Assembly (NCBI RefSeq): GCF_002930645.1
Contig: NZ_PSNW01000004.1
Location: 124,370 to 188,369, forward strand
DNA from: Solimonas fluminis
Lineage (GTDB): Bacteria; Pseudomonadota; Gammaproteobacteria; Nevskiales; Nevskiaceae
DNA length: 64,000 nucleotides
Reading direction: 5' to 3'
Both the position numbers and the translations under genes were made by a program. Each line of letters starts with the position of its first letter. The stretch's first letter is position 1. The notes under the pieces were generated by a model that worked only from the letters and a program-made list of their open reading frames with translations, was not told the DNA's origin and made no database searches. Positions 1,242-53,800 of this stretch are shown one piece after another.

Positions 1242-2183
1242 CTACTCGCCGTTGAAATCGATGAAGGTGCCGTCCACCAGCCGGTCGCGCATCGCCGGAT
1301 TGGCCGCGGCCACGTCGCCGCTGGCGTTCATCTCGGCGATGTAGGCCTCCATGGCACGCTGCGTGGACTTGTGCCCCAGCGAGCTCACGAAGGCGGCCTG
1401 TTCCATCTTCAGGCCCATCTCCAGCGGCAGGTTGCCGCCTTCCAGCACCGCGCGCTTGCAGGCCGCGACCACCGGCTTGGAGCGCCGCGCCAGGCGCTCG
1501 GCGGTGGCCAGCGCCTCGTCCAGCAGCGTCGCCCGCGGCAGTACGCGGTGGACCAGCCCGATGCGCTCGGCTTCCCCGGCCGGCACCGGCCGCCCCTCCA
1601 GCACCAGCTCCAGGGCGCGGCCGCGCCCGATCAGGCGTGCCAGGCGCTGCGTACCGCCGCCCCCCGGCGTGATGCCGATCAGGATCTCCGGCTGGCCGAT
1701 CAGGCCGTCGTCGCTGATCAGGCGCAGGTCGCAGGCCAGCGACAGCTCGCAACCGCCTCCCAGGGCCACGCCGTTGATCGCCGCGATGAACACTGCGCCG
1801 CTGCGGCCGATGCTCGTCATGGTGTCGTGGAAACCCCGCAGCTGCGACAGGCCGGCCGCGGGCGTGCGCTCCAGCACCGCGCCGCTGCCCGGGATGCGCT
1901 CCAGCGCGCCGATGGCGCCGATGCTGGCCTTGGCCAGGGATTCCGGCAGCGAGGGCGCGCTGCGCGCCAGCGCCAGCAGCTCGCGGATGTCGTAGTGGGC
2001 GATGAAGCGCTCGGGGTGCGCGCCGGTGAGCACCACGGCACCGACACTGTCGTCATCGGTCGCGCGGCCGACGAGCTGGTCCAGCTCCGCGACCATGCCG
2101 GCGCCCATCAGGGCATGCGGCGGATGGTCCAGCCGGGCCAGCAGCACGCGGCCGCGCTGCTCGACGTGGATCTGCTCGGACAT
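1242..2183 (-). CDS. Enoyl-CoA hydratase/isomerase (crotonase family) with an internal insertion
   Basis: A 313-residue crotonase-fold protein expected to hydrate or isomerise enoyl-CoA thioesters in the cytoplasm during fatty-acid or side-chain beta-oxidation. GGGCEL at 142-147 and QPEI at 164-167 hold both glutamates (Glu146, Glu166) that catalyse hydration in classical enoyl-CoA hydratases, and PGGGGTQRL follows. The first oxyanion-hole segment is unusual: HYDI at 63-66 in place of the common GAD-type sequence. The protein is about 50 residues longer than typical hydratases. The extra length lies between residues about 70 and 120, rich in Ala/Gly/Pro. The substrate cannot be read from sequence; nearby acyl-CoA and steroid-type enzymes fit a catabolic role. 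Confidence 0.82.
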   Translation of the reverse strand: MSEQIHVEQRGRVLLARLDHPPHALMGAGMVAELDQLVGRATDDDSVGAVVLTGAHPERFIAHYDIRELLALARSAPSLPESLAKASIGAIGALERIPGSGAVLERTPAAGLSQLRGFHDTMTSIGRSGAVFIAAINGVALGGGCELSLACDLRLISDDGLIGQPEILIGITPGGGGTQRLARLIGRGRALELVLEGRPVPAGEAERIGLVHRVLPRATLLDEALATAERLARRSKPVVAACKRAVLEGGNLPLEMGLKMEQAAFVSSLGHKSTQRAMEAYIAEMNASGDVAAANPAMRDRLVDGTFIDFNGE

Positions 2184-2293
2184 GGCGCACTCCCCTGGGG
2201 CAGGCCCACAGCCTAGCAGCCCCGGGCGGCAGCGCGCAGTATCCGCCCCTGCCGGGCGACGGGGATGTCCCGCAACAGGGCGGCGCGGGCGCG

Positions 2294-2626
2294 CTACCGG
2301 TACGGCGAGCGGCTCAGCTCCATGCCCTCCCGGATGCGGCAGCTGATCGTCAGGCTGCCGTCACCGGCCCAGATCTTGGTGCTGCGCAGCCCGGGGGCAT
2401 CCACCAGCCGCAGGGCCGGCGACTTGGCGGAGGCGGCCAGATTGTCGGAGCGCGTCAGGCACTCGCTCCAGCTCATGCTGAAGACTTCCCTCTTGCTCAC
2501 CGGCCCCTCGGCCGGATAGCGGCCCAGCGGGATCATCAGCTGCAGCTGCTCCGGGGTGTAGGTCGCGCCGGCCTGCGCCGACAGCGCCACCAGCAGCAGC
2601 AGGGAGGGAAGACCGGCCAGTTTCAT
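2294..2626 (-). CDS. Small exported protein of unknown function
   Basis: A 110-residue protein with a clear signal peptide (MKLAGLPSLLLLVALSAQAGA), so it is probably periplasmic. Two cysteines, one near residue 56 and one near 96, could form a disulphide. I do not recognise a domain with certainty; its size and exported character recall DUF3617-like small periplasmic proteins. It lies between the crotonase gene and the kstD-like gene on the same strand, but a terminator-like hairpin separates it from the latter, so it is probably transcribed separately. Function unknown. Confidence 0.55.
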   Translation of the reverse strand: MKLAGLPSLLLLVALSAQAGATYTPEQLQLMIPLGRYPAEGPVSKREVFSMSWSECLTRSDNLAASAKSPALRLVDAPGLRSTKIWAGDGSLTISCRIREGMELSRSPYR

Positions 2627-2700
2627 GGGATGTCCGTTTTCCGGAGGAAGGAGACCGGGGCAAGATTAAGTCCGGGCCCGCGGCGAGTGAAGCGGGCAGC

Positions 2701-2735
2701 AAAAAGCCCGGCCTCCTCGCGGAAGCCGGGCCTTT
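2701..2735 (-). terminator. Terminator-like hairpin after the kstD-like gene
   Basis: GCCCGGC (2706-2712) pairs with GCCGGGC (2725-2731). On the minus strand the stem is followed directly by TTTTT (complement of 2701-2705), the usual pattern of an intrinsic terminator. It lies 12 bases beyond the stop codon of the flavoprotein gene. A shorter T-run on the other side (2733-2735) makes weak activity in the plus direction possible. Confidence 0.7.
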
Positions 2736-2746
2736 CAGGCAAGCCC

Positions 2747-4474
2747 TCAGGCCGCAGCCGCGATCCTGGGTTGCTCGGCCTTGGCCGACTCCGCGATGTC
2801 GCGGGCGGCGATGTAGCCGAAGGTCATCGCCGGACCCAGCGTGGAGCCGGCGCCCGGGTAGGTGCTGCCCATCACCGCCGCGGAGGTGTTGCCGATGGCA
2901 TAGAGGCCGGCGATGACGCTGCCATCCTCGCGCAGCACGCGCGCCCTCGGATCCACGTCCAGGCCACCCTTGGTGCCGATCTCGCCGGGGTACATCGGTA
3001 CGGCATAGAACGGCGGCTTCACGATGGGACCGAGGCAGGTATTGGGTTTCACGCTCGGATCGCTGTAGTAGCGGTCGATCGGGATGCTGCCCTTGCCGAA
3101 CTCCGGGTCGACGCCGGTCTTGGCGTACTCGTTCATGCGCGCCACGGTCTCGGCCAGGCCCTTGCGGTCCACGCCGATCTTGCCGGCGAGCGCATCGATG
3201 CTGTCGGCGCGGAAGTAGACCTTGTCCAGCCAGTCGGCCGGCAGCCGCGCATCCGGCTCGATCTGGCCCGGCAGGAAGATGCCCATCGGGTACTTGTAGC
3301 GGAACGTGGCGTCGAACACGAGCCAGGCCGGCACGCAGCCGTTGCCCTTGGCGTGGTCGGCGTACATCGCGTCACGGAAGTCCGGATACGCTGCCGCCTC
3401 GTTGGCGAAGCGCTTGCCCTTGGCGTTGACGGCCACGCAGCCCGGCATGCCTCGCTCGATGAACAGCGTGATCTGCTGGTCGGCGCCGGGCTTGCGCACG
3501 GTGGGCGAGCCCCAGACCTTGTCCATCAGCTTGGTCGCGGCACCCAGCGCCTGGCCGGCGCGGATGCCGTCGCCCTGGTTGATCGGCGGAGCGGCGGTCC
3601 ATTCCACCTTGGTCGGTTGCGCCAGATACTTTTCGCGCATCGCCTGGTTGGACTCGAAGCCGCCGCAGGCCAGGATCACGCCGCGGCGGGCGCCGTAGCG
3701 CTGCTTGCGGCCGCGATGCACGACGTTGACGCCGACGACGCGGCCGTTCTCCTCGATCAGCGAGTCCATGCCGCATTCCAGCACCAGCGGCACGTTCTTC
3801 TGCAGCATGGCGTAGCGCAGGGCCGACACCATGCCCTGGCCCAGCACCTGGCGGCGGTCACGGTGCGTGCGGCGGCGCCAGCCGAGGTCGAGCCAGTACT
3901 TGAGCAGCATCTTCAGCGTCAGCCAGATCCAGCCCGGGCCGCGCGAGAACAGCGTATGCGCCTCCACCTGGCTCATGGCGATGCGGCCCATCAGCAGCGT
4001 GCCCTTGAAGGACTCGCGCTGGCGGTCGAACTCGGGACCGAGCAGCGAAGCATCGAAGTCCACCGGCTCCATCGAACGCCAGCCGTCCTTGCCGCCCGGA
4101 CGGTTGGAGTAGTAGTCCGGGTACTTCGGCACGTTGCGGTATTTCACGCCGAAGGTCTTGGCCATGTAGCGCACCATCTCCGGCGCGTTCTTCAGGTAGG
4201 CCTCGATGCGCTCCTGCGGAACCTCGCTGCCGACGATCTCCTTGAGGTAGGTCAGGCCTTCCTCGTAGGAATCGCTGCCGCCGGTGCGGGCGATGTCGTC
4301 ATTGTTGGGAATCCAGATGCCGCCGCCGGATACCGCGGAGGTGCCGCCGTACTTGTCGGATTTCTCGATCACCACGGCCGACAGGCCCAGCGACTGGGCG
4401 CACAGCGCGGCGGTCATGCCGCCGCCGCCGGAGCCGACGACGACGACGTCGAACTGCTGGTCGAAGTTGCTCAT
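2747..4474 (-). CDS. FAD-dependent oxidoreductase, 3-ketosteroid delta1-dehydrogenase-like
   Basis: A 575-residue flavoprotein of the fumarate reductase/KstD superfamily. The FAD dinucleotide-binding motif is VVVGSGGGG at 11-19, followed by EKSDKYGGTSAVSGGG around 37-52. Near the C-terminus PFYAVPMYPGEIGTKGGL (488-505) and STYPGAGSTLGPAMTFGY close the flavin site. Family knowledge: KstD enzymes introduce a 1,2 double bond into 3-oxosteroid ring A. The close match in length and architecture favours that over a succinate-type enzyme, but other 3-oxo-cyclohexyl substrates are possible. It starts 3 bases after the stop of the upstream hsaA-like gene, so the two are surely co-transcribed. Confidence is high for the superfamily and moderate for steroid specificity. 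Confidence 0.75.
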   Translation of the reverse strand: MSNFDQQFDVVVVGSGGGGMTAALCAQSLGLSAVVIEKSDKYGGTSAVSGGGIWIPNNDDIARTGGSDSYEEGLTYLKEIVGSEVPQERIEAYLKNAPEMVRYMAKTFGVKYRNVPKYPDYYSNRPGGKDGWRSMEPVDFDASLLGPEFDRQRESFKGTLLMGRIAMSQVEAHTLFSRGPGWIWLTLKMLLKYWLDLGWRRRTHRDRRQVLGQGMVSALRYAMLQKNVPLVLECGMDSLIEENGRVVGVNVVHRGRKQRYGARRGVILACGGFESNQAMREKYLAQPTKVEWTAAPPINQGDGIRAGQALGAATKLMDKVWGSPTVRKPGADQQITLFIERGMPGCVAVNAKGKRFANEAAAYPDFRDAMYADHAKGNGCVPAWLVFDATFRYKYPMGIFLPGQIEPDARLPADWLDKVYFRADSIDALAGKIGVDRKGLAETVARMNEYAKTGVDPEFGKGSIPIDRYYSDPSVKPNTCLGPIVKPPFYAVPMYPGEIGTKGGLDVDPRARVLREDGSVIAGLYAIGNTSAAVMGSTYPGAGSTLGPAMTFGYIAARDIAESAKAEQPRIAAAA

Positions 4475-4477
4475 GGC

Positions 4478-5668
4478 TTACAGGAAGAAGTCGGTGTTGT
4501 CGCGGCCCAGCAGCACGCCGCCGTAGTTGCGGCCGAAGATGTCCGGGTTGTTGGCGTAGTGCGCGCGCGCCGCGTGGATGTCGAGGAAGAAGCGCACCAG
4601 CGGGAAGTCGCTGAAGATGCCGCGGCCGCCGCAGGCCGAGAACAGCTGGTAGGCGTGACGCGCGCTGCGCTCCACCACCTGGGCCGCCTGGTAGCGGTAG
4701 TGCAGGCGTTCGTTGAGGTCCAGCGGCTGGCCGCTGCGGATCTTGCCCAGCAGCGTGTCGAAGTTGCGGCGCAGGATCAGCTTCATCTCGTCCACGGCCA
4801 GCATGGCGTCGGCCACGGCGAGCTGGGCCGGACCCTGTTCGGCGGTCTTGGAACCCATGTTGCCGGTCCAGGCCTTGCCCCAGTCCACGAAGCTGTTGAC
4901 CGCGCCCTGCAGGCCGCCGATCGCGGCGCTGGACACCGCGCGCACGAAGATCTGGCCGAACGGCAGGTCATACAGCGTCGAGGTGAAGGTCTCGCCGCCG
5001 GGGTTGGTGCCCATGAAGCCGTCGCTGGCCTTGTGCGTGCGGTACTCCGGCACGAAGCAGCCCTTGACCACGATGTCCTTGGAACCGGTGCCCTTGAGGC
5101 CCATGGTGTGCCAGGTGTCGATGACCTCGAAGTCCGAGCGCGGCACCAGGAAGGTGCGGTACTCCGGAGCGCCCTTGCCGTCTTCCGGGAAGATCAGGCC
5201 GCCGAGGAACACCCACTGGCAGTGGTCGATGCCGCTGGAGAAGCCCCAGCGGCCGCTGAACTGGAAGCCGCCCTCGACGCGCTTGACCTGGCCCTTGGGC
5301 ATGTAGGTCGAGGCGATGAGCACGGAAGTATCGCCGCCGCCCCAGACATCGGCCGCGGCGCGGGGGTCGAACAGCGCGATCTGCCAGTTGTGCACGCCGA
5401 TCACGCCGTAGATCCAGGCGGTGGACATGCAACCCTCGGCCAGCGTGGTGCAGACGTCGTAGAACACCTGCGGGTCCATCTCGTAGCCGCCGTACATCTT
5501 CGGCTTGAGCACGTCGAACAGGCCGGCGGCCTGCATGTCGGCCACGGTCTCCTTGGGCACGCAGCGGTCGGCCTCGGCCTTGGCGGCGCGTTCCGCCAGC
5601 ACCGGCACCAGGTCGCGGGCGCGCTGGACCAGGATCTCGGGGGTGACGGTCTGGGGCTTGGATTGCAT
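4478..5668 (-). CDS. Flavin-dependent monooxygenase / acyl-CoA dehydrogenase type 2 family, HsaA-like
   Basis: A 396-residue protein resembling the oxygenase subunit of two-component flavin monooxygenases (HsaA/HpaB-like, acyl-CoA dehydrogenase fold). These hydroxylate a phenol using FMNH2 or FADH2 supplied by a reductase. I chose the ATG at 5668 because AAGGAG (5677-5682) lies 8 bases upstream; the frame stays open further but without such a site. Visible family features are the N-terminal helical region (APPxA-like acid/basic helices, 10-60), the GRWGFSSGIDH segment and a C-terminal helical bundle ending NTDFFL. HsaA acts on 3-HSA in steroid ring degradation. Pairing with a kstD-like gene 3 bases downstream fits that pathway. 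The reductase HsaB is not seen here. Confidence 0.72.
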   Translation of the reverse strand: MQSKPQTVTPEILVQRARDLVPVLAERAAKAEADRCVPKETVADMQAAGLFDVLKPKMYGGYEMDPQVFYDVCTTLAEGCMSTAWIYGVIGVHNWQIALFDPRAAADVWGGGDTSVLIASTYMPKGQVKRVEGGFQFSGRWGFSSGIDHCQWVFLGGLIFPEDGKGAPEYRTFLVPRSDFEVIDTWHTMGLKGTGSKDIVVKGCFVPEYRTHKASDGFMGTNPGGETFTSTLYDLPFGQIFVRAVSSAAIGGLQGAVNSFVDWGKAWTGNMGSKTAEQGPAQLAVADAMLAVDEMKLILRRNFDTLLGKIRSGQPLDLNERLHYRYQAAQVVERSARHAYQLFSACGGRGIFSDFPLVRFFLDIHAARAHYANNPDIFGRNYGGVLLGRDNTDFFL

Positions 5669-5686
5669 CGTTGAATCTCCTTGACG

Positions 5687-5706
5687 GGCCCCGTCCGGCG
5701 GGGGCC
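5687..5706 (-). promoter_or_regulatory. Hairpin in the leader just upstream of the hsaA-like ribosome-binding site
   Basis: GGCCCC (5687-5692) faces GGGGCC (5701-5706) across a short loop. On the minus strand the hairpin ends five bases before the AAGGAG of the hsaA-like gene. In the plus direction it is followed by TTTT, but no plus-strand gene precedes it, so terminator use is unlikely. It could modulate translation initiation of the operon; no function is shown. Confidence 0.35.
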
Positions 5707-5807
5707 TTTTCGTAGTGGCGCCAAGGCTCACACAGGGGCGCAAGCCGAGCATCGTCCAAAATGACTAGAGCTCGGACAGGCCCCTCCGCCCCCGCAAAAA
5801 CAGGATC

Positions 5808-8456
5808 TTAGCGCCGACCGGCCGCCGGCATCAGGAAGCGGCACAGGGCCGGGCCCAGCAGCACCGCGCCGAGCATGTTGGCGGTGAACATGAAGGCCAG
5901 CAGCAGGCCCATGTCGCGCTGGAACTGCAGTGCCGAGAACAGCCAGGAAACCACGCCGCCGGCCAGGCACAGGCCGGTGAACAGCACCGCCTTGCCGGTC
6001 TGGCGCAGCGTGGCGACATAGGCCTCGCGCAGGTCCAGGCCCTCGTCCAGCACCTTGTGCCGCAACAGGTCGTAGACGTAGATGCCGTAGTCCACGCCGA
6101 TGCCCACGGCCAGCGTGATCACCGGCAGGGTGGCCACCTTCAGTCCGATGCCGAACACGGCCATCAGGGCGTTGGCGAAGATCGATACCAGGAACAGCGG
6201 TATGCCGATCACCAGCAGGCCGGTGAAGGAGCGGTAGGACAGCAGCACCAGGGCCCCGATCACCACGTAGACCCACAGCACGGTCTTGAGCTCGCTGGCC
6301 TCCACCACCTCGTTGGTGGCCGCCATCACGCCGACGTTGCCCGAGGCCAGCGCGAAGTGCACCGGACAGGGCGAGGGGCCGGGCTCCGCGCGGGCCTCGG
6401 GGCTGCGCCGGCCCGCCTCGCAGGCGGCCGGGTCGAGCTGCGGATGGTCGGCGAAGAAGTCGCGCGCATTGTCGCGGTTGAAGCGCTCGACGGCGTCGGT
6501 GATGCGGTGGATGGTGGTGGCCTTGTGGTCCGAGGTGAAGACATAGACCGGGATCGCGCTGCAGTCCGCGTTGAGCAGGCCGGTGGAGGTCTCCACCGGC
6601 TTGGTGGAAAGCACCAGGGAATCGTGGTTGCGCGGCAGCACGCGGAACTTGACGTGGCCCTCCCAGAAGCCGGAGTAGATCGCCCTGGCGATGTCCGGCA
6701 GCGCGCGCGTGGAGGCCACGCCCTCGACGTTGCGCAGGTGCCAGGCGAAGCGGTCCACCTGCTCCAGGGGATCGTGCTCGATGCAGTCCCAGGAATCCGC
6801 CTCCGCCACCACGGTGAGGATGTCGGTGGCGATGCTGAAATTCTCGGCGATGATCCGCGAGTCGCGGTTGTAGGCCGAATCCGGCCGCAGCTCCGGCACG
6901 CCGGCCTGGGCGTCGCCGATGATGCGCTGGCCCTGCAGGTACCCGCTCACGCCCAGCACCACGGCCGCCAGCAGCAGCAGCCCCGCCGCCACCGGGGCGG
7001 TGGTGACCGCCGCCATGCGCTGCCACAGCGCCTCGCCGCTGCGCGCCAGCTGCGCGCGGCGCGCGCGGAAGGCTTCCAGGTCCTTCACCCTCAGGCGCGA
7101 CAGCCAGATCGGCATCATGACCTTGTTGGTGACGATCACCGCGAACATGCCCAGGCAGGCATTGGCCGCCATCTCGCGGATCACGCCGATCGGCACCAGG
7201 GCGATGGTCAGGAAGCCGGCGACGTTGGTGATCAGCGCGATGCTGCCCGGGATGAACAGGCGCCGGAAGGTGGAGCGCGAGGCCTCGAAGGGCGCCTCGC
7301 CCTGCACTACCTGGTCGGCCCAGGTGTTGACGTACTGCACGCCGTGGCTGGTGGAGATCGCCAGCACCAGGAAGGGCACCATGATCGCGAAGGGGTCCAG
7401 GCCGTAGCCGAAGCTGTGCAGCAGGCCCATCTCCCAGATCACCGCCACCACCGAGCAGGCCAGCGGCAGCCAGGCCAGGCGCAGGTCGCGCAGGTACAGC
7501 AGCAGCGCCAGGAAAGTGCCGAGCACGGTCAGGGCGAAGAAGAACACCACGCTGCGGGTGGCGTCGGTGACGTCGCCGATGACCTTGGCGAAGCCGACGA
7601 TGTGCACCGAGAGGCGCGGGTTGTACTGCGGGTTGGCGACGCGCTCGGCCTGCAGCAGGCGGCCGGGGACCTGCACGACCACCGGCTGGCCGTTCTCGTC
7701 CTGCCCGGCCGTGTCGATGGCGCGGAACCGCAGCTGCCAGCCAGGATCGGCGAAGCGCTCCGCCACCACCTGCCCGGCCTTGAAGGCGCCATAGTCGGTC
7801 TTGAGCCTGAGCAGGTACTTGTCCGTGCTGGTGAAGCGGCCGCGGACATCGCTTTCCAGGCCATGGGCCACGCGCTGGTAGTCGGTGCGGGCATTGGTGC
7901 TGGGATTGCGCTCCAGTACCTCGGCGTAGACCATCGCGCCGCGCTGGTCCTGGCTGACCAGGCGCCCGATCACGCCGGCCTTGCCCACCGCCACGCGGAT
8001 GCCGGCCAGCATCTCCGGGGTCGGCGTGTAGTTGGCCGGGATCACGTCCTCGGCGCGGAAGCCGCCGTCCACCACCTCCAGGTAGCGCACGTTGCGCGTG
8101 AAGATCGACGACAGTCGCGCGCGGTCGATGCCGGGAATGAATTCCACTTCCTCGGTCGCGGCCTTGAGGCTGGCCATGAACTCCGGGTTGTAGATGTCGC
8201 CGTCCTTCTGCACCAGCGCCACCAGCACCGCGTTGGCGCCGCCGCCCAGGTCTTCCTGGTAGCGCTGCAGCACCTGCATGTAGGGGTGCTCCAGCGGCAC
8301 GGTCTTGTCGAAGCTGGCGTCCGGCTTGAGCTGCAGGGCCTGCCACAGCATGGCCAGGGTCATCAGCACGAGCAGGGCCACGCTGAAGCGGCGGCCGCGC
8401 GGCGCGTAGAGCGCCGGTTCGACGAAGCGGACGATGGACTGCGCGGTCAAGGCCAT
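5808..8456 (-). CDS. RND-superfamily (MMPL/HpnN-like) membrane transporter
   Basis: An 882-residue inner-membrane protein with the duplicated RND layout: TM1 at about 26-42, a large periplasmic loop to about 300, a block of helices starting SVVFFFALTVLGTFLALLL (302-320), a second periplasmic loop, and a final helix block after about 720 with GIGVDYGIYVYDLLRH. The second halves of both blocks have the sterol-sensing-like pattern of MMPL/patched-family exporters. Relatives move lipids, hopanoids or other hydrophobics across or within the envelope, driven by the proton motive force. It has no adaptor or TolC gene beside it, typical for this subfamily. It precedes the hsaA/kstD pair by 139 bases on the same strand. 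DUF1302/DUF1329 proteins, common companions of this transporter type, lie 40 kb away. Confidence 0.85.
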   Translation of the reverse strand: MALTAQSIVRFVEPALYAPRGRRFSVALLVLMTLAMLWQALQLKPDASFDKTVPLEHPYMQVLQRYQEDLGGGANAVLVALVQKDGDIYNPEFMASLKAATEEVEFIPGIDRARLSSIFTRNVRYLEVVDGGFRAEDVIPANYTPTPEMLAGIRVAVGKAGVIGRLVSQDQRGAMVYAEVLERNPSTNARTDYQRVAHGLESDVRGRFTSTDKYLLRLKTDYGAFKAGQVVAERFADPGWQLRFRAIDTAGQDENGQPVVVQVPGRLLQAERVANPQYNPRLSVHIVGFAKVIGDVTDATRSVVFFFALTVLGTFLALLLYLRDLRLAWLPLACSVVAVIWEMGLLHSFGYGLDPFAIMVPFLVLAISTSHGVQYVNTWADQVVQGEAPFEASRSTFRRLFIPGSIALITNVAGFLTIALVPIGVIREMAANACLGMFAVIVTNKVMMPIWLSRLRVKDLEAFRARRAQLARSGEALWQRMAAVTTAPVAAGLLLLAAVVLGVSGYLQGQRIIGDAQAGVPELRPDSAYNRDSRIIAENFSIATDILTVVAEADSWDCIEHDPLEQVDRFAWHLRNVEGVASTRALPDIARAIYSGFWEGHVKFRVLPRNHDSLVLSTKPVETSTGLLNADCSAIPVYVFTSDHKATTIHRITDAVERFNRDNARDFFADHPQLDPAACEAGRRSPEARAEPGPSPCPVHFALASGNVGVMAATNEVVEASELKTVLWVYVVIGALVLLSYRSFTGLLVIGIPLFLVSIFANALMAVFGIGLKVATLPVITLAVGIGVDYGIYVYDLLRHKVLDEGLDLREAYVATLRQTGKAVLFTGLCLAGGVVSWLFSALQFQRDMGLLLAFMFTANMLGAVLLGPALCRFLMPAAGRR

Positions 8457-32304: not shown

Positions 32305-32311
32305 GAAAAAT

Positions 32312-32692
32312 GGGGAGTCGGCCGATAAGCCGGGTTCTGTCCTGAGCCCTTGCGGGCCGAGGCAACCATTCCTCTACGCGACGCGTCACCGCGGCGCTTT
32401 AGCAGCCTACCCGGATGGCGCGCGGGCCGCGCGTCGCAGCCTTGCGGCTGCGCCCATCCCTATTTGGCCTTGCTTCCGGTGGGGTTTACCGTGCCGTTGC
32501 CGTTGCCGGCCCCGCGGTGCGCTCTTACCGCACCGTTTCACCCTTGCCTGATCCCTTGCGGGCCATCGGCGGTCTGTTCTCTGTGGCACTTTCCGTCGGC
32601 TCGCGCCGCCCAGGCATTACCTGGCACCTTGCCCTGTGAAGCCCGGACTTTCCTCCCCCGCTTTCGCGGCGGCGATTGCCTGGCCGGCTCCC
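32312..32692 (-). ncRNA. rnpB: RNase P RNA (M1-type, bacterial class A)
   Basis: On the minus strand the hallmark blocks appear in order. GAGGAAAGTCCGGGC follows the 5' stem, then AGGGCAAGGTGCCAGGTAA, then AGAGGAATGGTTGCC, then ACAGAACCCGGCTTATCG near the 3' end. These are universally conserved in bacterial RNase P RNA (P4, J-regions and P1 closure). The 5' GGAGCCGGCC pairs with the 3' GGCCGACTCC to form P1 with a single mismatch, which sets the ends to within a few bases. The RNA is the catalytic part of tRNA 5' processing. Length of about 381 nt is normal. Confidence 0.96.
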
Positions 32693-47154: not shown

Positions 47155-47880
47155 ATGACGGAACCTGTGATCCCGACCTTCGATCCGGCTGCCTTCGGCT
47201 CCATCCTGTTCTTCACCGGAGCCGGGCTGTCGGCCGAATCCGGGGTGCCGACCTACCGGGGACATGGGGGCATCTGGGCGCAATACAACTACGAGGACTA
47301 CGCCTGCCAGCGCGCCTTCGAGCGCGACCCGGCGCGGGTGCTGGATTTCCACGAGGTCCGCAGGACACATGTCCTGCGATGCCCGCCCCATGCCGGGCAT
47401 CGCCACCTGGCGCGGCTGCAGGCGGCGTTTCCCCAGGTCCGGGTGGTGACCCAGAACATCGACGGCCTGCTGCAGCGGGCCGGCATCCGGGTGGACGCCG
47501 AGCTGCACGGCTCGCTGTGGCGCCAGCGCTGCCCGCGCCACGGCCTGCGGCAGGACCTGGACGCCGGTCCCTACCGCCACCGCCGCTGCCCGGACTGCGG
47601 CGCTTGGTTGCGGCCGGACATCACCTGGTTCGAGGACATGGTCAACGAGGCCGTGTTCGACACGGCGCGCCGGCTGGTGGCCGGCTGCGGGCTGTTCGTG
47701 TCCGTGGGCACTTCGGGCGTGGTCTGGCCGGCGGCGGGCTTCGCCCGGCTGGCACAGGAGAGCGGCGCCCTGATGGTGGAGATCAACCCCGAGGACAACG
47801 AGGCCAGCCCGCTCTACCGGCACCGGCTGCGGGGCAAGGCCGGGGAGCTGATTCCGGCGGCGTTTCCGCTGCCCGGGTGA
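47155..47880 (+). CDS. NAD-dependent protein deacylase (sirtuin, CobB-like)
   Basis: A 241-residue class III sirtuin removing acyl groups from lysines with NAD+. FFTGAGLSAESGVPTYRG (19-36) and TQNIDGLLQRAG (99-110) bind NAD, and the catalytic base is His118 in ELHGS. The zinc site looks like C126-x2-H129 with C145-x2-C148. CobB/SIRT5-type enzymes read succinyl groups with a Tyr-x-x-Arg pair; here the pair is His66-x-x-Arg69. So Arg is kept and Tyr replaced, and acyl preference may differ. Divergent from kdsD. Confidence 0.92.
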   Translation: MTEPVIPTFDPAAFGSILFFTGAGLSAESGVPTYRGHGGIWAQYNYEDYACQRAFERDPARVLDFHEVRRTHVLRCPPHAGHRHLARLQAAFPQVRVVTQNIDGLLQRAGIRVDAELHGSLWRQRCPRHGLRQDLDAGPYRHRRCPDCGAWLRPDITWFEDMVNEAVFDTARRLVAGCGLFVSVGTSGVVWPAAGFARLAQESGALMVEINPEDNEASPLYRHRLRGKAGELIPAAFPLPG

Positions 47881-48000
47881 CCGGATCCCCAAGGCTTCTT
47901 GCCTCTGCCTCCGGGAGAGGCCGGCGCGACAGCGGCGGCTGAGGGACGCGCCTGCCGACCCTGCGGTGTCCGATCTCCGGCCGAGTCCCTCACCCCCAAC

Positions 48001-48023
48001 CCCCTCTCCCACAGGCAGAGGGG
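48001..48023. repeat. CCCCTCTCCC hairpin between convergent genes
   Basis: CCCCTCT (48001-48007) pairs with AGAGGGG (48017-48023). A second, smaller inverted repeat GCCTCT/AGAGGC lies at 47901-47921. Both sit in the gap between the sirtuin and DUF1329 stops and resemble the hairpin at 35799-35822. Possibly a factor-dependent terminator; no U-tract. Confidence 0.4.
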
Positions 48024-48033
48024 AACAGCAGGA

Positions 48034-49377
48034 CTATCGCAGCCCGCTCCTGCGCATCGCCGCCGGCGTGAAGAAGCCGTCCTCGCCCTGCCAGCGGTAG
48101 TTGGTCGGCTTCTCCAGGTTGTCGAGGCCGCCCACCACGTAGCGACCGTTGACGAAGTCGTAGCCCGCCTCCACCGCCGCCACCACCGCAGGCAGGTCGT
48201 AGGCCGTCATCAGGTGTCCCTCCTGCACACGCCAGAGCTGGTCGCGCTGGTCGTAGCAGTCGACATAGCTGATGTACCAGCTGTCCTCGTCCAGGTAGAA
48301 GGTCCGGCGCTTGTAGAGGTGCGAGGTGCCCTCGCGCACCGAGGCCTCCACCACCCAGACGCGGTGCAATTCGTAGCGCGCCAGGTCCTGGTTGAGATGC
48401 GCCGGGCGGATCACGTCCTTCGGCGGCAGGCCGCGGGCCTCCAGCGCGTAGCTGTTGTAGGGGATGTAGATCTCGCGCTTGCCCATCAGCTTCCAGTCGT
48501 AGCGGTCGATGGCGCCGTTGTAGATGTCGATCTGGTCGTGGGTACCGAGCGAGTCGGTGGCCAGCGTCGGGTTGTCGTAACCCAGTTCCGGCGCGCGGCG
48601 CACGCGGCGCTGGCCCGGGTTGTAGGACCAGGCCATGTTCGGCTCGCGCAGCTGGTCGATGGTCTGGTGCACCAGCACGATGTTGCCGGCCAGCCTCGGC
48701 GGCGACAGCACGTAGGTGAGGTAGTACAGGAAGATATTGTCCTTCAGGTCCGCCGGCTCGATGCCGATCTGGTTGTACTTGAGCTTGACGTAGCGCAGCA
48801 CGCGCGTGACCTCGAAGTCGCCGCTGCGGGTGACGACGGCGGCGTTGTAGTAGCCCTCCAGCGCCGGCGCCACGTACTTGGTCTTGTGGTTCCAGATCGC
48901 CTCGGCGCCGGTCTTCGGTATCGGGAAGGCCGGCCCGGTGACCGCGTCATGCAGCGAGTCGGTGCCCTCCAGCGTGGCGCGCAGGGCGTTCTTCTTCACC
49001 GCCTCGTAGACGCCCTGTGGGTAGGCCGCGCTGCGCCGCGTGGGATAGACCTTCATCGTGTAGGTCTTGTAGCGGCGGAAGCTGTCGAGCTGGCCCGCGG
49101 TCAGGCGGGCCTTGTGCTGCAGGTAGTTGGCCGAGCTGATCGTGAACAGCGGCTTGTCGGCGGCATAGGGGTCGGCATAGCCCTTCTGCGGGTCGATGGG
49201 CTTCTGCACCAGGCCGCCGGTCCACTCCGGGATGCTGCCGTCGGCATTGCCGGCGCGCTGCGCGCCCATCGGCGTCAGGTCCTTGCCCAGGCGGTCTGCC
49301 TCCTGCGGCGAAACCTTGGCCAGCAGCGGCGGCGACAGCAGCGCGAGGGACAATGCGGCAAGCGTGATGGCTTTCAT
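48034..49377 (-). CDS. DUF1329 periplasmic protein
   Basis: A 447-residue exported protein of the DUF1329 family. The signal peptide MKAITLAALSLALLSPPLLA precedes KVSPQEADRLGKDLTPMG, the typical start of the mature family. YPTRRSAAYPQGVYEA and DRYDWKLMGKREIYIPYN are further family-like stretches. The ATG at 49377 follows GAGGTG at good spacing; a GTG at 49386 is less likely. The fold is thought to be LolA/LolB-like, which would suit lipid or hydrophobe carriage. It starts 10 bases after the DUF1302 stop and ends the operon. Confidence 0.85.
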   Translation of the reverse strand: MKAITLAALSLALLSPPLLAKVSPQEADRLGKDLTPMGAQRAGNADGSIPEWTGGLVQKPIDPQKGYADPYAADKPLFTISSANYLQHKARLTAGQLDSFRRYKTYTMKVYPTRRSAAYPQGVYEAVKKNALRATLEGTDSLHDAVTGPAFPIPKTGAEAIWNHKTKYVAPALEGYYNAAVVTRSGDFEVTRVLRYVKLKYNQIGIEPADLKDNIFLYYLTYVLSPPRLAGNIVLVHQTIDQLREPNMAWSYNPGQRRVRRAPELGYDNPTLATDSLGTHDQIDIYNGAIDRYDWKLMGKREIYIPYNSYALEARGLPPKDVIRPAHLNQDLARYELHRVWVVEASVREGTSHLYKRRTFYLDEDSWYISYVDCYDQRDQLWRVQEGHLMTAYDLPAVVAAVEAGYDFVNGRYVVGGLDNLEKPTNYRWQGEDGFFTPAAMRRSGLR

Positions 49378-49387
49378 GCGGGACACC

Positions 49388-51274
49388 TCAGAACGCGTAC
49401 TTGACGCTGAACGCCGCGGAGTCGCGGTCGTGGATCAGGTTGGTGTTGCGGTAGTCGGGGCCGACACCGAAGAAGCTGATGTAGCTGAGATCGAAGGCCC
49501 AGCGGCCCAGATAGTCGAAGCGCAGCGACAGCTGCGCCTGCATGCTGTCCTCGATGAAGGAGCGCGCGGGGCCCGCCGGCGTGCCGTTGACGTCGTGGAA
49601 GAAGGTCAGCGTCGGGCTGAAGTTCCAGCTGCTGCCGAGGAAGTTGGAGTAGTTGAGGAATGTCAGCAAGCGGTAGCCCCAGCCGAAGTCCTCGGAGTAG
49701 TAGTCGTTGGACACGCCCTCGGTGCCGCCCTTCTGGAAGGTGCCCGGCCCCTCGAAACGCAGCTCGTCCTTGCCCGGCATGTCCAGGATCCGGGTGGCGC
49801 CGACTTCCAGCAGGATCGTCCACTGGTCGGCGAAGAAGGGGTTGTCCGGCCCCCAGAGGTAGGTGCCGGTGAGCTGCCATTGCAGCATGTCCATGCGGCG
49901 CCAGCCCTGGAAGTAGCTGCCGGGCGCCACGTCCTGGCCGAGCTGATTGTCGGGGAAGAACATCGAGAAAGCCGTGCCGCCCACCGGCCCGGCGAGCTGC
50001 GCCACCGGCGCCAGGCCGTGGTAGACCAGCTCGTAGTCATCGATCTGGAAGGGCTGTCCGTGGCGCCAGCTGAACTCGCCCTGCAGGGCCACGCCCAGCG
50101 GCGTGTCGGTGTTGAAGCTGATGCCGGTGACCTGGATGTCCTCCGGATACTCCAGGCGGTAGCCGCCGACGCCATGGATACCGCGCAGCTTCTCCACCTG
50201 ACCCGGCGTCAGCGACTGCGGCTCCAGCAGTCCGCGCACCAGCAGCACGCCGGTCAGGCCGGTCGGGTCCTGCAGGCCCGTGGCGCCGATCTCGTTGTAC
50301 TGCTGCCACTGGGCCTCGCTCAGCGCATAGCCGCTGGTCAGCGGCAGGCTGGAGTGGATGTTCATGAAGAACAGGCCGAACTCCATGCTGTTCCAGTCCG
50401 GCACGATGCGGGTCAGCGCGAAGCCGAACTGCCCGTCGGCACGCGCGTCCCTGTCCGGGCGGCGGAAGATCCGGTAGCCGTCGGGCAGGTCGTTCTGCTC
50501 GAAGAAGGCGCTCTCCAGGATCAGGAACTCGCCGCCGATCGACAGGCCATCCACCTGGCCGAACAGGCTGCCCTGCGGATCGGCCACCACCTTCTCGTTG
50601 CCGAGCTGGTAGAAGGCTTCCAGGCTGATCTCGTCGGTGATGCCGAGCTGCGCATAGGCCAGCGGCACCGGCACGAACACGTTCTTCAGCTCCGAGCCGG
50701 GGTAGCGCAGCTTGGTCAGGTCGTAGGTGTTGACCGAGTTGATGCCGAACTGGATGAAGGTGCTTTCACCCCAGCTGATCACCTGGTTGCCCAGGCGCAC
50801 CGTGAGCGGCATCTCCGCCACTTCGAAGTTGGCATAGCCGTACCAGTCGAGCAGCCGCAGGTCGGCGGCATAGGCTTCTACCACGTTATCCCCACGGCGG
50901 CGGCCGTTGAGAGCAGCCTCGTCGAATTCCGCGTTGACCGGATCGTAGTAGCCGTAGACCCGCAGGAAGGCGCCGGCGTCGCCCCAGTTCAGGTTCAGGT
51001 CCTGGTTGAACTGGATCGGTGCATAGCTGATATCGCCGCGGTCGTAGTTGAGGTTGCCGTCGTCGATGTTCGACGATAGCCCGGTGCCGCCGTTGCCGCG
51101 GCTCACCAAGCCGGGGTCGCGATCCTGCACGCGCACCGCCACGCCCGCTGTCAGCAGCGTGTCGACCTGCAGCGTGGCGTCGCCGAACCTGGCCTCGTAG
51201 GCCTGCGCCGGCGCGGCGGCGGTCGCCGCCGCGATCAGGGCGCAGGCGGCGCGGCGCTTGGACGGTTTGCGCAT
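49388..51274 (-). CDS. DUF1302 outer-membrane beta-barrel-like protein
   Basis: A 628-residue DUF1302 protein with signal peptide ending APAQA-Y. The mature part has alternating aromatic strands such as YGYANFEVAEMPLTVRLGNQ and a C-terminus ending in aromatic residues (SVKYAF), typical of outer-membrane beta-barrels recognised by BAM. DUF1302 and DUF1329 genes are commonly adjacent and often accompany RND/MMPL transporters; transported substrates are largely unknown. It overlaps the upstream multi-TM gene by 40 bases and precedes DUF1329 in a tight operon. Confidence 0.87.
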   Translation of the reverse strand: MRKPSKRRAACALIAAATAAAPAQAYEARFGDATLQVDTLLTAGVAVRVQDRDPGLVSRGNGGTGLSSNIDDGNLNYDRGDISYAPIQFNQDLNLNWGDAGAFLRVYGYYDPVNAEFDEAALNGRRRGDNVVEAYAADLRLLDWYGYANFEVAEMPLTVRLGNQVISWGESTFIQFGINSVNTYDLTKLRYPGSELKNVFVPVPLAYAQLGITDEISLEAFYQLGNEKVVADPQGSLFGQVDGLSIGGEFLILESAFFEQNDLPDGYRIFRRPDRDARADGQFGFALTRIVPDWNSMEFGLFFMNIHSSLPLTSGYALSEAQWQQYNEIGATGLQDPTGLTGVLLVRGLLEPQSLTPGQVEKLRGIHGVGGYRLEYPEDIQVTGISFNTDTPLGVALQGEFSWRHGQPFQIDDYELVYHGLAPVAQLAGPVGGTAFSMFFPDNQLGQDVAPGSYFQGWRRMDMLQWQLTGTYLWGPDNPFFADQWTILLEVGATRILDMPGKDELRFEGPGTFQKGGTEGVSNDYYSEDFGWGYRLLTFLNYSNFLGSSWNFSPTLTFFHDVNGTPAGPARSFIEDSMQAQLSLRFDYLGRWAFDLSYISFFGVGPDYRNTNLIHDRDSAAFSVKYAF

Positions 51275-51858
51275 GACTCCCCCGTGGACGCCACCTGCCT
51301 GGGCAGCGCCGTTGTGTTGTCCATCATCTCACGCCGCCGCAGTGCCGCACCGAAGCCGAGCTGTGCCAGAGCCAGTGCATAGTGCATGGAATCGACCTGC
51401 GGCCACCGCCCCCGCGGCGCGAAAGCACCCGCGGCCAGGGTGGCGACGATCCCCAGCCCGATCGGCACAACCAGCGGCGGCAGACGCCGCTCGCGCCACA
51501 GCAGCAGCGCCCAGCCCAGCAGCGTGGCCAACCCCACCAGCAGGCGGGCCTGGGGCTGTATCCAGGCGGCGGCGCTGAACAGCAGCAGTGCGCCGACCGC
51601 TGGCGCCGCGCGGCGCGCGCCCAGGCCGGCATAGGCCAGCAAGACCAGCGGCAGGCCGAGCGTCCCGGCCAGGAAGGACAGGCCCTGGTGCCACGGCTGC
51701 AGGGCCGGCACCGGGCCGTAGCGCAGGCTGCCCGCCGCCGCCGCCAGCGCGATCACCGCGAAGCCGGCCACGGCCAAGGGCCGCGAACGCGCCAGCGCCA
51801 TTGCCGCCAGCGCGGCGGCGCAGAGCGCGGCATCGGAGATCACGGTTTCGAGTTGCAT
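51235..51858 (-). CDS. Polytopic membrane protein of unknown function
   Basis: A 207-residue protein with about seven hydrophobic segments (roughly 7-23, 28-45, 59-80, 83-99, 104-121, 126-146, 157-173) and a short polar tail. I recognise no family. ATG 51858 follows the desaturase stop by one base (TGAGATG) and has GAGGG upstream; the longer frame to 51885 lies inside the desaturase gene. The stop lies 40 bases inside DUF1302, an unusually long overlap for this window. Its place between a desaturase and DUF1302 suggests a lipid- or sterol-related membrane role (inference). Confidence 0.65.
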   Translation of the reverse strand: MQLETVISDAALCAAALAAMALARSRPLAVAGFAVIALAAAAGSLRYGPVPALQPWHQGLSFLAGTLGLPLVLLAYAGLGARRAAPAVGALLLFSAAAWIQPQARLLVGLATLLGWALLLWRERRLPPLVVPIGLGIVATLAAGAFAPRGRWPQVDSMHYALALAQLGFGAALRRREMMDNTTALPRQVASTGESCANRPSAAPPAP

Positions 51859-51859
51859 C

Positions 51860-52708
51860 TCAGGGCACCCTCGCCGCAGCGGCATCGGGGGGCGGGGCCT
51901 CCTTGCCGAAGTCCGGCGGCAACCAGGGCCGGCGCAGCGCCTCGCGCAGCGTCGGCGCCGTGCGCATCTCCTGCCACAGCGCCTGCCAGTCGTGGAAGGC
52001 GATGCGCAGCGGGTGGTGGCTTCCGACGTTGTGCGTCAGGCCGTAGCGCACCTTCTCCCCTTCCGGCTCGAAGGTCCCGAACAGACGGTCCCAGACGATG
52101 AAGATGCCGCCGTAGTTGCGGTCGATGTACTGGGGGTTGGCGCCATGGTGCACGCGGTGGTGCGAGGGCGTGTTGAGGACCCATTCCAGCGGCCCGAGTC
52201 GGCCGATGGCCTCGGTGTGGATCCAGAACTGGTAGATCAGGCTGATGGCGCCGGCCGTGATCACGTGCGCCGGGCTGTAGCCGGCCAGCGCCAGCGGCAT
52301 GAAGAAGCCATAGGAATACAGCGGCGTGGTCCAGGACTGGCGCAGTGCCGTGGTCAGGTTGAAGGCCTGGCTGGAATGGTGGTTGACGTGCGCCGCCCAG
52401 CCGGCGCGCACGCGGTGGCTGAAGCGGTGGTACCAGTAGAAGCAGAAGTCATGCCCGAGGATCAGCAGCGGCCAGGCCCAGATGGCGCCCATGTCGATGT
52501 CCCACGGCCGGTGCTCGTAGAGCGCCACGTACACCGCCACCCAGAACAGCTTGCACAGCAGGCTGATGAAGACGTTGCCGACGCCCATCGCGAGGCTGGC
52601 AATGGCGTCCGGCCCATCGTAGGCTTGCCCGCGACGGATCAGCCACGCCGCCTCCATCGCGACCAGCGCGAGGAAGGCGGGAATGGCATAGAGCACCAAG
52701 TGTTCCAT
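51860..52708 (-). CDS. Fatty acid hydroxylase / sterol desaturase family membrane enzyme
   Basis: A 282-residue integral membrane di-iron oxygenase. The three histidine clusters are HDFCFYWYHRFSH, HVNHH and HHRVHHG, with several TM helices in between. Family members hydroxylate or desaturate sterols, fatty acids, carotenoids or other lipids; the substrate here cannot be told. It heads a four-gene operon with the multi-TM protein, DUF1302 and DUF1329. It is divergent from an AraC-type regulator that may control it. The start ATG 52708 is only 33 bases from the regulator start. Confidence 0.88.
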   Translation of the reverse strand: MEHLVLYAIPAFLALVAMEAAWLIRRGQAYDGPDAIASLAMGVGNVFISLLCKLFWVAVYVALYEHRPWDIDMGAIWAWPLLILGHDFCFYWYHRFSHRVRAGWAAHVNHHSSQAFNLTTALRQSWTTPLYSYGFFMPLALAGYSPAHVITAGAISLIYQFWIHTEAIGRLGPLEWVLNTPSHHRVHHGANPQYIDRNYGGIFIVWDRLFGTFEPEGEKVRYGLTHNVGSHHPLRIAFHDWQALWQEMRTAPTLREALRRPWLPPDFGKEAPPPDAAAARVP

Positions 52709-52741
52709 GACGCCATGGTGCCGCGAACCAGGGGAGGCGTA

Positions 52742-53800
52742 TTGACCGCAGGCACGAGCACATTGTCTTCAGGCGACAGCCTCGCGGGCACTGAACCGCA
52801 GCTCGTCTTCGTCGCCTATGCCCGCGGGCTGATCGACCACCTGCGCACCCGGCAGCTCGACATCGCTGCCCTGCTGGCGCTGGCCGGCCTGGACGAGGCG
52901 GCGCTGGACCAGCCGGCACGCACGATCTCCGCGGACACCTACGTGCGCCTGTGGGCGGAGGCCGAGCGCCTCAGCGGCGACCCGCAGTTGGGCCTGCATG
53001 TCGGCGAACTGGTGCGGCCCGGCAAGTACGGCGTGCTGGGCTACGTCATGATGAGCTGCGAGACCCTGGGCGAATCCCTGCTGCGGCAGCTCCGCTACCA
53101 GGACCTGGTCGGCAAGTCCGGCCGTTCGGAGCTGGTGCAGGGCGGCGACCGCTGCGAGCTACGCTGGCATTCGGCCATGGCGCGCGGCTCGCGCCACGTC
53201 GGCGAGGAGCACGTGGCGAGCTGGGTCGCCTTCGCGCGCTGGATGCTCGGCGCACCGGGCCGCGATCCGGTGGAGGTGCAGTTCGAGCACCCCGCCCCGA
53301 CCGACCTCGCGGAGCACCAGCGCCTGTTCCGCTGCCCGCTGCGCTTCGGTCAGCCCTATACCGCCGTGGCCTTCGAGCCCGGCCTGCTGAAGCTGCCGTT
53401 GCGCGACAAGAACCCCGAGATGCGCGCCCTGATGGACCGCCACGCCGAGATGCTGCTGGCGCAGCGGGTGCAGGGCGAAGCGGAACTGACCCAGGAAATC
53501 CGCGAAACCATTGCGAAGCAACTCGCCGACGGCGTGCCGGAGATCGAACTGGTGGCCGCGCAGCTCAAGGTGCAGCCGCGCACGCTGCAGCGCCGCCTGT
53601 CCCAGGCCGGCACCAGCTACAAGGACCTGGTCGATGACGTGCGGCGGCGGCAGGCACTGAAGTACATCGCCGATCCGCGCCTGAACCTGCCGGAGATCGC
53701 GTTCCTGCTGGGCTTCTCGGAGCAGAGCTCCTTCCAGCGGGCGTTCAAGCGCTGGACGGGGTTGCCGCCGGGGCAGTATCGGGAATGTGGCGGGGGCTGA
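52742..53800 (+). CDS. AraC-family transcriptional regulator (arabinose-binding-like N-domain)
   Basis: A 352-residue regulator. The N-terminal domain (about 15-210; VFVAYARGLIDHLRTRQLD, GKYGVLGYVMMSCETLGE) is the Arabinose_bd type found in OruR-like proteins. The C-terminal part (about 255-350) holds two HTH motifs ending in the AraC signature LNLPEIAFLLGFSEQSSFQRAF. I prefer the TTG at 52742 because GGGGAGG (52731-52737) precedes it; an ATG at 52715 would add nine residues. Divergence from the desaturase gene suggests control of that operon. The inducer is unknown. Confidence 0.85.
   Translation: MTAGTSTLSSGDSLAGTEPQLVFVAYARGLIDHLRTRQLDIAALLALAGLDEAALDQPARTISADTYVRLWAEAERLSGDPQLGLHVGELVRPGKYGVLGYVMMSCETLGESLLRQLRYQDLVGKSGRSELVQGGDRCELRWHSAMARGSRHVGEEHVASWVAFARWMLGAPGRDPVEVQFEHPAPTDLAEHQRLFRCPLRFGQPYTAVAFEPGLLKLPLRDKNPEMRALMDRHAEMLLAQRVQGEAELTQEIRETIAKQLADGVPEIELVAAQLKVQPRTLQRRLSQAGTSYKDLVDDVRRRQALKYIADPRLNLPEIAFLLGFSEQSSFQRAFKRWTGLPPGQYRECGGG

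Follow-up and report, generated by a model that had tools for sequence, protein, structure and literature searches.

A conserved Solimonas fluminis operon joining an AGMO-like monooxygenase and a seven-transmembrane protein to a DUF1302/DUF1329 pair, with a possible role in the uptake and oxidation of O-alkyl amphiphiles

Introduction

Pfam still lists DUF1302 and DUF1329 as families of unknown function. Published work connects pairs of these proteins with growth on either Tween 20 or monoterpenes: in Pseudomonas putida, the metabolism of Tween 20 was reported to require PP_0765 (DUF1302) and PP_0766 (DUF1329) as well as PP_2018 and the RND protein PP_2019 (PMC10866462), and the AmeABCD system, made up of DUF1302, DUF1329, YCF48-type and RND proteins, was interpreted as an exporter (PMC6394551). 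On the enzyme side, the closest described protein is alkylglycerol monooxygenase (AGMO, also TMEM195; EC 1.14.16.5), which two reviews call the only known enzyme for its ether-cleaving reaction, and on the regulatory side it is GliR (PA3027), an activator of genes that its authors placed in glycerolipid and alkylglycerone-phosphate metabolism (PMC8151288). This study concerns a locus of Solimonas fluminis in which an AGMO-like gene, a gene for a seven-transmembrane (7-TM) protein and a DUF1302/DUF1329 pair stand together beside a divergent AraC-family regulator gene. The locus occupies positions 48,034 to 53,800 of the window, namely the 64,000-nucleotide stretch that was analysed (NCBI RefSeq assembly GCF_002930645.1, contig NZ_PSNW01000004.1, positions 124,370 to 188,369 of the forward strand; part of contig C29 in our numbering) of a genome of 4.67 Mb.

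The transport proteins and the enzyme type are each known, and for their combination no report joining an AGMO-like enzyme to DUF1302/DUF1329 was found in the literature searched, which covered titles and the starts of abstracts, mostly without subscription papers. The analysis supports the operon well as a unit, and we tentatively propose, at somewhat below an even chance, that this unit takes up and oxidises an O-alkyl amphiphile, with oxidative cleavage of the ether.

Results

The four genes lie on the reverse strand. The first (51860..52708) encodes an FA_hydroxylase protein of 282 amino acids (PF04116, E = 9e-29), an AGMO-like membrane monooxygenase, and the second (51235..51858, likely start ATG 51858) encodes the 7-TM protein of 207 amino acids, which has no Pfam match. 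They are followed by genes for a DUF1302 outer-membrane beta-barrel protein (49388..51274; PF06980, E = 1.8e-145), the translation of which has a signal-like N-terminus and a C-terminal Phe, and a DUF1329 periplasmic protein (48034..49377, likely start ATG 49377; PF07044, E = 6.8e-133; PF17131 LolA_like, E = 9.5e-8). The GliR-like AraC-family gene (52715..53800, forward strand; PF12625, E = 2.7e-51, and PF12833, E = 3.8e-20, the N-terminal domain being of the arabinose-binding type) has its start at ATG 52715 or, alternatively, at TTG 52742, which is 6 or 33 bases from the enzyme start. An earlier note, made from the letters of this DNA, had described a four-gene operon with a divergent AraC gene, its genes separated by 1 base, overlapping by 40 bases and separated by 10 bases in turn; all five genes were present, and the spacings were reproduced with the likely start codons. 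As the next gene downstream of DUF1329, SIR2, is convergent, the operon comprises four genes. A sequence scan of positions 47850-53000 found neither a sigma-70-like promoter nor an intrinsic terminator, and we therefore infer a single transcript for the four genes from their spacing and conservation.

The full set, including the divergent AraC gene, was found with order and orientation kept in a genome of the same genus (G002), where the genes flanking the operon are the same too, and in a genome of another family of the order (G058). Given this conservation, the layout is not due to chance. The window DUF1329 protein is 90% identical to its counterpart in G002 and 67% to that in G058, the next best value among the matches listed being 54% (85 genomes of the order, E <= 1e-145). 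The copies of the window, G002 and G058 form one clade (100/100) for DUF1302 and likewise for DUF1329, in trees that took in 17 of the 24 DUF1329 and 21 of the 23 DUF1302 copies of the source genome. Such a number of paralogues in one 4.67-Mb genome would be a set suited to the study of substrate specificity.

The linkage that the earlier note had expected in relatives was borne out in a partial test, since three of the four genomes of the order with the 7-TM gene, the source genome among them, have the whole set, as does a more distant genome of the same class but another family (G579). There, genes for an AraC regulator, an AGMO-like protein of 413 amino acids, a 7-TM protein (after a gap of 1 base), DUF1302 and DUF1329 follow one another on one strand. 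The G579 DUF1329 protein groups with other paralogues (96/92), and its DUF1302 protein is separated by a supported split (99/98) from 19 rows that include that of the window; with a DUF pair of other lineages in G579, the gene combination has been assembled separately at least twice. It could be argued from the rarity of the set, present in three of the 85 genomes of the order including its own, that the four genes are mere neighbours without a shared pathway. We consider this highly improbable in view of the conserved order and overlaps and of the second assembly from different DUF-pair lineages.

Two other genomes of the same genus hold, of the operon, just a 43% relative of the enzyme, and thus the operon seems to have been gained or lost as a block. 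In a genome of the same family (G014), photolyase-like and kdsD-like genes stand 0.7 kb apart without the operon (L196, 4039-13641). Another DUF1329-DUF1302 pair lies 2.7 kb beyond these genes in G014, near the place that the operon has in the window.

Relatives of the enzyme were found on plasmids as well; 15 of the 56 matching records were listed and eight of them examined. Plasmid pPAMH19 (L318, 5962-17142) carries an AGMO-like gene (408 amino acids) divergent to SDR, hypothetical, DUF1302, DUF1329, YCF48 and MMPL genes, its DUF1302 and DUF1329 proteins being 31% and 45% identical to those of the window and 29% and 49% identical to those of G579. The pPAMH19 block adjoins a mercury-resistance cluster. 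Among the records examined, a 7-TM gene adjoins the enzyme gene in two (H3, H4), and single records showed a DUF cluster (H5), a divergent AraC gene (H12), a GntR gene upstream (H1) and none of these (H7), while in the unannotated stretch of H6 and H10 a frame scan with the operon queries found the enzyme alone. One enzyme-carrying plasmid came from wastewater effluent. Together with the occurrence of enzyme copies on plasmids, this origin would fit a xenobiotic substrate, as in the bolder version of the proposal given in the Discussion.

For the enzyme, the positions of residues essential in human AGMO were taken from the figure legend of PMC7911779 and from PMC3617469, and all 15 were matched in the window enzyme, with a shift of one residue after the first block. 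The matches comprise nine histidines (H94, H98, H107, H110, H111, H164, H184, H187 and H188), which make up the eight-histidine motif and the equivalent of H201, and Q124, D196, N198, Y199, W206 and D207, corresponding to Q162, D233, N235, Y236, W243 and D244 of human AGMO. Across 115 aligned rows, the window's own gene included, the essential positions are near-invariant, except Y236 (Y in 76, H in 33, F in 6) and W243 (W in 108, F in 7). The equivalent of Q162 was found in 10 of 11 AGMO-like proteins versus 1 of the 16 motif-bearing PF04116 proteins outside this group, where three more are without the motif (30 proteins with a locus, out of 38 PF04116 matches from four genomes). In a tree of 71 rows, none of them from G002, the AGMO-like proteins were set apart (100/99) from the six PF04116 proteins of other kinds, but the nearest kin of the window enzyme was not resolved. 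The ornithine lipid hydroxylase profile OlsE (NF052566) gave 52 bits against a cut-off of 475. The AlphaFold2 (AF2) model of the enzyme has a predicted local distance difference test (pLDDT) score of 88; a Foldseek comparison of this model with the PDB gave no E under 0.001, and PDB sequence and profile searches with the enzyme gave nothing credible, so that the reading of the active site rests on sequence alone. On this basis the enzyme most likely works like AGMO, and the AGMO-like type is fairly well supported. The earlier note had named the enzyme a desaturase and, more broadly, a histidine-box lipid or sterol oxygenase; by its residue pattern it resembles an AGMO-like monooxygenase and not a desaturase.

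The second protein of the operon had been called an unrecognised seven-transmembrane protein, and this description holds: no Pfam match was listed even at E <= 10 (most weak matches being filtered out), no NCBIfam match was found at E <= 0.1, and the AF2 model, built from a four-row alignment, has seven helices (pLDDT 78.5). For the G002 homologue, a match to EccD had an E of 0.003 and fell short of the family cut-off. At the starts of helices 3 and 7, H57 and H159 do not vary among eight 7-TM sequences, which have either Asp or Glu at position 9. In the order, the 7-TM gene occurs in four of the 85 genomes, always adjoining an AGMO-like gene, in one case (G048) without DUF genes. A 7-TM homologue directly follows an AGMO-like gene in nine places, namely the window, G002, G058, G048, G101, G579, G715 and the plasmids pF076 and pKV29. 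These counts vary with the profile, since the pF076 and pKV29 proteins gave weak matches to the first profile (at Z 1000, E = 3e-4 and 3e-3), and the G101 copy, missed by the earlier profile, was found adjoining its enzyme once the profile had been enlarged. Similarly, tblastn of the window protein against plasmids gave nothing, and a plasmid homologue as the query found four plasmid records. The co-occurrence of enzyme and 7-TM protein gave P = 3.5e-4 in the order and 4.4e-5 in the class sample, with cut-offs chosen post hoc and the kinship of genomes ignored.

Structural comparison of the 7-TM model gave Myomaker at Z 14.5 (root-mean-square deviation 3.3 over 174 residues), tied with rhodopsins and G-protein-coupled receptors at Z of about 13-14, and the TM-score to ACER3 and AdipoR2 was 0.57; the fold thus neither claims nor excludes a family. 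The model shares its seven helices with the CREST superfamily (alkaline ceramidase, PAQR and Myomaker), but it has two single invariant histidines in place of the SxxxH and HxxxH motifs, with no HxxxH in the last helix. A CREST hydrolase was rejected because the SxxxH/Asp/HxxxH motifs are lacking. The possibility that the protein is a detached C-terminal part of AGMO was likewise rejected: profile comparison gave no match, which is weak evidence with such thin alignments, and 7-TM genes follow longer AGMO-like proteins too.

Concerning the regulator, the best NCBIfam match of the AraC protein is GliR (NF050186), at 260.8 bits against a cut-off of 570. Divergent AraC counterparts stand at the operons of G002 and G058, a GliR-like AraC gene (E <= 1e-10 to the window protein) lies within about 1.5 kb of 13 of the 30 AGMO-like loci of the order, and on plasmid QKH54 such a gene is divergent to the AGMO-like gene. 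In seven genomes of one genus, an enzyme 51-55% identical to that of the window follows gpsA (glycerol-3-phosphate dehydrogenase), and G058 has a GDPD gene as well as one of phosphodiesterase type nearby, within 8 kb.

The window contains one further group of genes that bears on the substrate. At positions 1245-8456, on one strand, enoyl-CoA hydratase-like, KstD-like (3-ketosteroid dehydrogenase), HsaA-like monooxygenase and MMPL/RND genes form a likely steroid-degradation and transport cluster. These genes, and the steroid-degradation genes that the bacterium carries, are the starting point of an alternative in which the same unit handles another substrate, the enzyme hydroxylating a sterol, steroid, hopanoid or fatty acyl chain that DUF1302 and DUF1329 import. 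The 23 DUF1302 and 24 DUF1329 matches of the genome are what one would expect if the bacterium uses many hydrophobic substrates, and the plasmid relatives of the enzyme are mostly annotated as 'sterol desaturase family protein'. However, the steroid genes lie about 42 kb off the operon, the residue pattern favours AGMO, though not exclusively, and the neighbours of relatives together with the regulator point to glycerolipids, with the reservation that such links were sought for AGMO-like enzymes and not for sterol enzymes. We regard this alternative as somewhat unlikely.

The MMPL/RND gene of that group (5808-8456) had been suggested as the inner-membrane part of the system. It lies 40 kb from the operon, between SecA and the HsaA-like and KstD-like genes, and its G002 orthologue, 92% identical, is about 103 kb from the operon there. 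The RND gene that stands 5.4 kb from the operon in G058 is instead sister (100/98) to another gene of the source genome (G000:C33) and its G002 orthologue, both of which have a DUF1329 gene next door. With a lineage other than that of the G058 gene and with its steroid-gene context, the 5808-8456 gene was rejected as a partner of the operon. Elsewhere in the window, positions 32310-32691 of the reverse strand hold a bacterial RNase P class A RNA (284.5 bits).

Discussion

This study supports the view, put forward in the earlier note, that a hydrophobic compound is both modified and transported through the envelope by one unit, in that the gene set recurs and DUF pairs have been tied to Tween 20 and monoterpenes. 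The proposal draws on what was observed directly, that is, the gene content, its conservation, the separate second assembly, the residue pattern of the enzyme and the kinship of the regulator; the substrate, which is no more than probable, the direction of transport, the role of the 7-TM protein and the regulation are what we infer from them. The cargo would be an amphiphile whose ether oxygen bears an alkyl chain, with an O-alkyl glycerolipid as the most likely candidate, and the DUF1302 protein in the outer membrane and the LolA-like DUF1329 protein in the periplasm would carry it inward. These two may share an inner-membrane partner of YCF48/MMPL type whose genes lie at another place in the genome. 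In the inner membrane, the AGMO-like di-iron enzyme would hydroxylate the carbon next to the ether oxygen, and the resulting hemiacetal would break down to a fatty aldehyde and a glycerol derivative. As a partner of the enzyme, the 7-TM protein may aid substrate access or be an accessory enzyme, and the GliR-like activator would turn the operon on. A bolder version, in which such operons represent a dedicated, partly mobile bacterial alkyl-ether catabolic system with an AGMO-type enzyme and a 7-TM protein coupled to a DUF1302/DUF1329 envelope conveyor, appears doubtful at present.

The published systems have been read both ways; for the direction of transport we would favour import, since an oxidising enzyme is part of the operon and a pump is not. 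In the outward alternative, the enzyme would modify or detoxify a membrane lipid or a solvent, and DUF1302, DUF1329 and an RND pump would export it. This is consistent with the ameABCD deletion, which lowered monoterpene tolerance and raised the accumulation of Nile Red (PMC6394551), and with an aromatic-regulon study that lists the same four families as possibly related to solvent stress. The essential role of the P. putida pair in Tween 20 metabolism fits import instead (PMC10866462), and no RND gene lies inside the operon, so that we hold export to be improbable. A YCF48-type protein had no match in the window at E <= 1e-5; YCF48-like genes are present elsewhere in the source genome, by other DUF1302/DUF1329/RND clusters, and their products could serve the operon in trans. 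PDB sequence searches with the DUF1302 and DUF1329 proteins gave nothing credible.

Several observations, in addition to the interpretation of AmeABCD as an exporter, weigh against uptake and ether cleavage by this operon, and the first of them concern the enzyme. Arg (R99) replaces the tetrahydrobiopterin-binding E137 of AGMO, a place at which the 115 aligned rows have R in 65 and E in 27; the G579 enzyme has Glu there. The C-terminal transmembrane domain of AGMO, AGMP_C (PF24858), is absent, the window enzyme having matched PF04116 alone at E <= 0.001, and it was matched, below its cut-off, in three longer bacterial relatives. Lacking both E137 and this domain, the window enzyme is not classed as AGMO despite the matching residues. 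The residue pattern itself is not exclusive, since D233 and N235 are common in other FA_hydroxylases and do not separate the groups, and one PF04116 protein outside the AGMO-like group (L276 in genome G195) has the equivalents of Q162, D233, N235 and Y236. L276 also has Glu at the E137 place. Moreover, the comparison with animal AGMO covered the published essential positions of the human protein.

The remaining points of this kind concern the gene context. The enzyme is coupled to DUF proteins in a minority of cases: neither DUF1302 nor DUF1329 was present in flanks of up to 10 kb at 80 AGMO-like loci of other genomes, and a DUF1302 piece, 9.5 kb from an AGMO-like gene (L133), was seen in a single additional genome of the order. 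In a sample of 398 genomes of the phylum, three of 13 7-TM matches adjoin an AGMO-like gene and ten have none within 1.5 kb, which indicates that the 7-TM family is wider than its enzyme-linked role; G195, with a 7-TM homologue that is unlinked although the genome has AGMO-like genes, argues against a tight partnership. Among six unlinked 7-TM loci, two (L313, L316) lie between what we take, from the starts of the proteins, to be hemL-like and miaB-like genes, and two (L312, L317) beside presumed gloB-like genes, a hint of a wider role. The gpsA-linked enzymes belong to one genus and one clade (100/100), and their linkage is probably one evolutionary event. As for the regulator, when four others were scored, QhpR beat GliR in two, and a scan for GliR motif A gave 103 matches in 64 kb against a shuffle mean of 39, a count that carries no information with two mismatches allowed in a GC-rich window.

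The operon links a DUF1302/DUF1329 pair with one particular type of enzyme, and a comparable link has arisen separately at least one more time, which makes the cargo of such a pair open to an informed guess. If this cargo is an alkyl ether, the operon supplies bacterial genes for a reaction of which AGMO has been described in reviews as the only known enzyme, and its enzyme would be a natural variant without the pterin-binding residue. The operon further highlights a 7-TM family without a name, the genes of which come after AGMO-like genes in several lineages.

Compared with AGMO, the window enzyme shares the FA_hydroxylase family and has the nine histidines and six further residues at matching spacing, and it differs in its length (282 versus 445 amino acids), in the Arg at the place of E137 and in giving no match to PF24858. 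The arrangement of the regulator resembles that of GliR, a same-type AraC protein divergent from a lipid operon (PA3026-PA3024), although the window protein scores under the GliR family cut-off and the operon contents are not alike. Like AmeABCD and the P. putida proteins PP_0765/PP_0766 with PP_2018/PP_2019, the operon encodes a DUF1302 outer-membrane and a DUF1329 periplasmic protein in adjoining genes, here with a gap of 10 bases; it differs from these systems in having no YCF48-type protein or RND transporter and in having a monooxygenase and a 7-TM protein built in instead, whereas on pPAMH19 all four Ame-type transport genes stand beside an AGMO-like gene.

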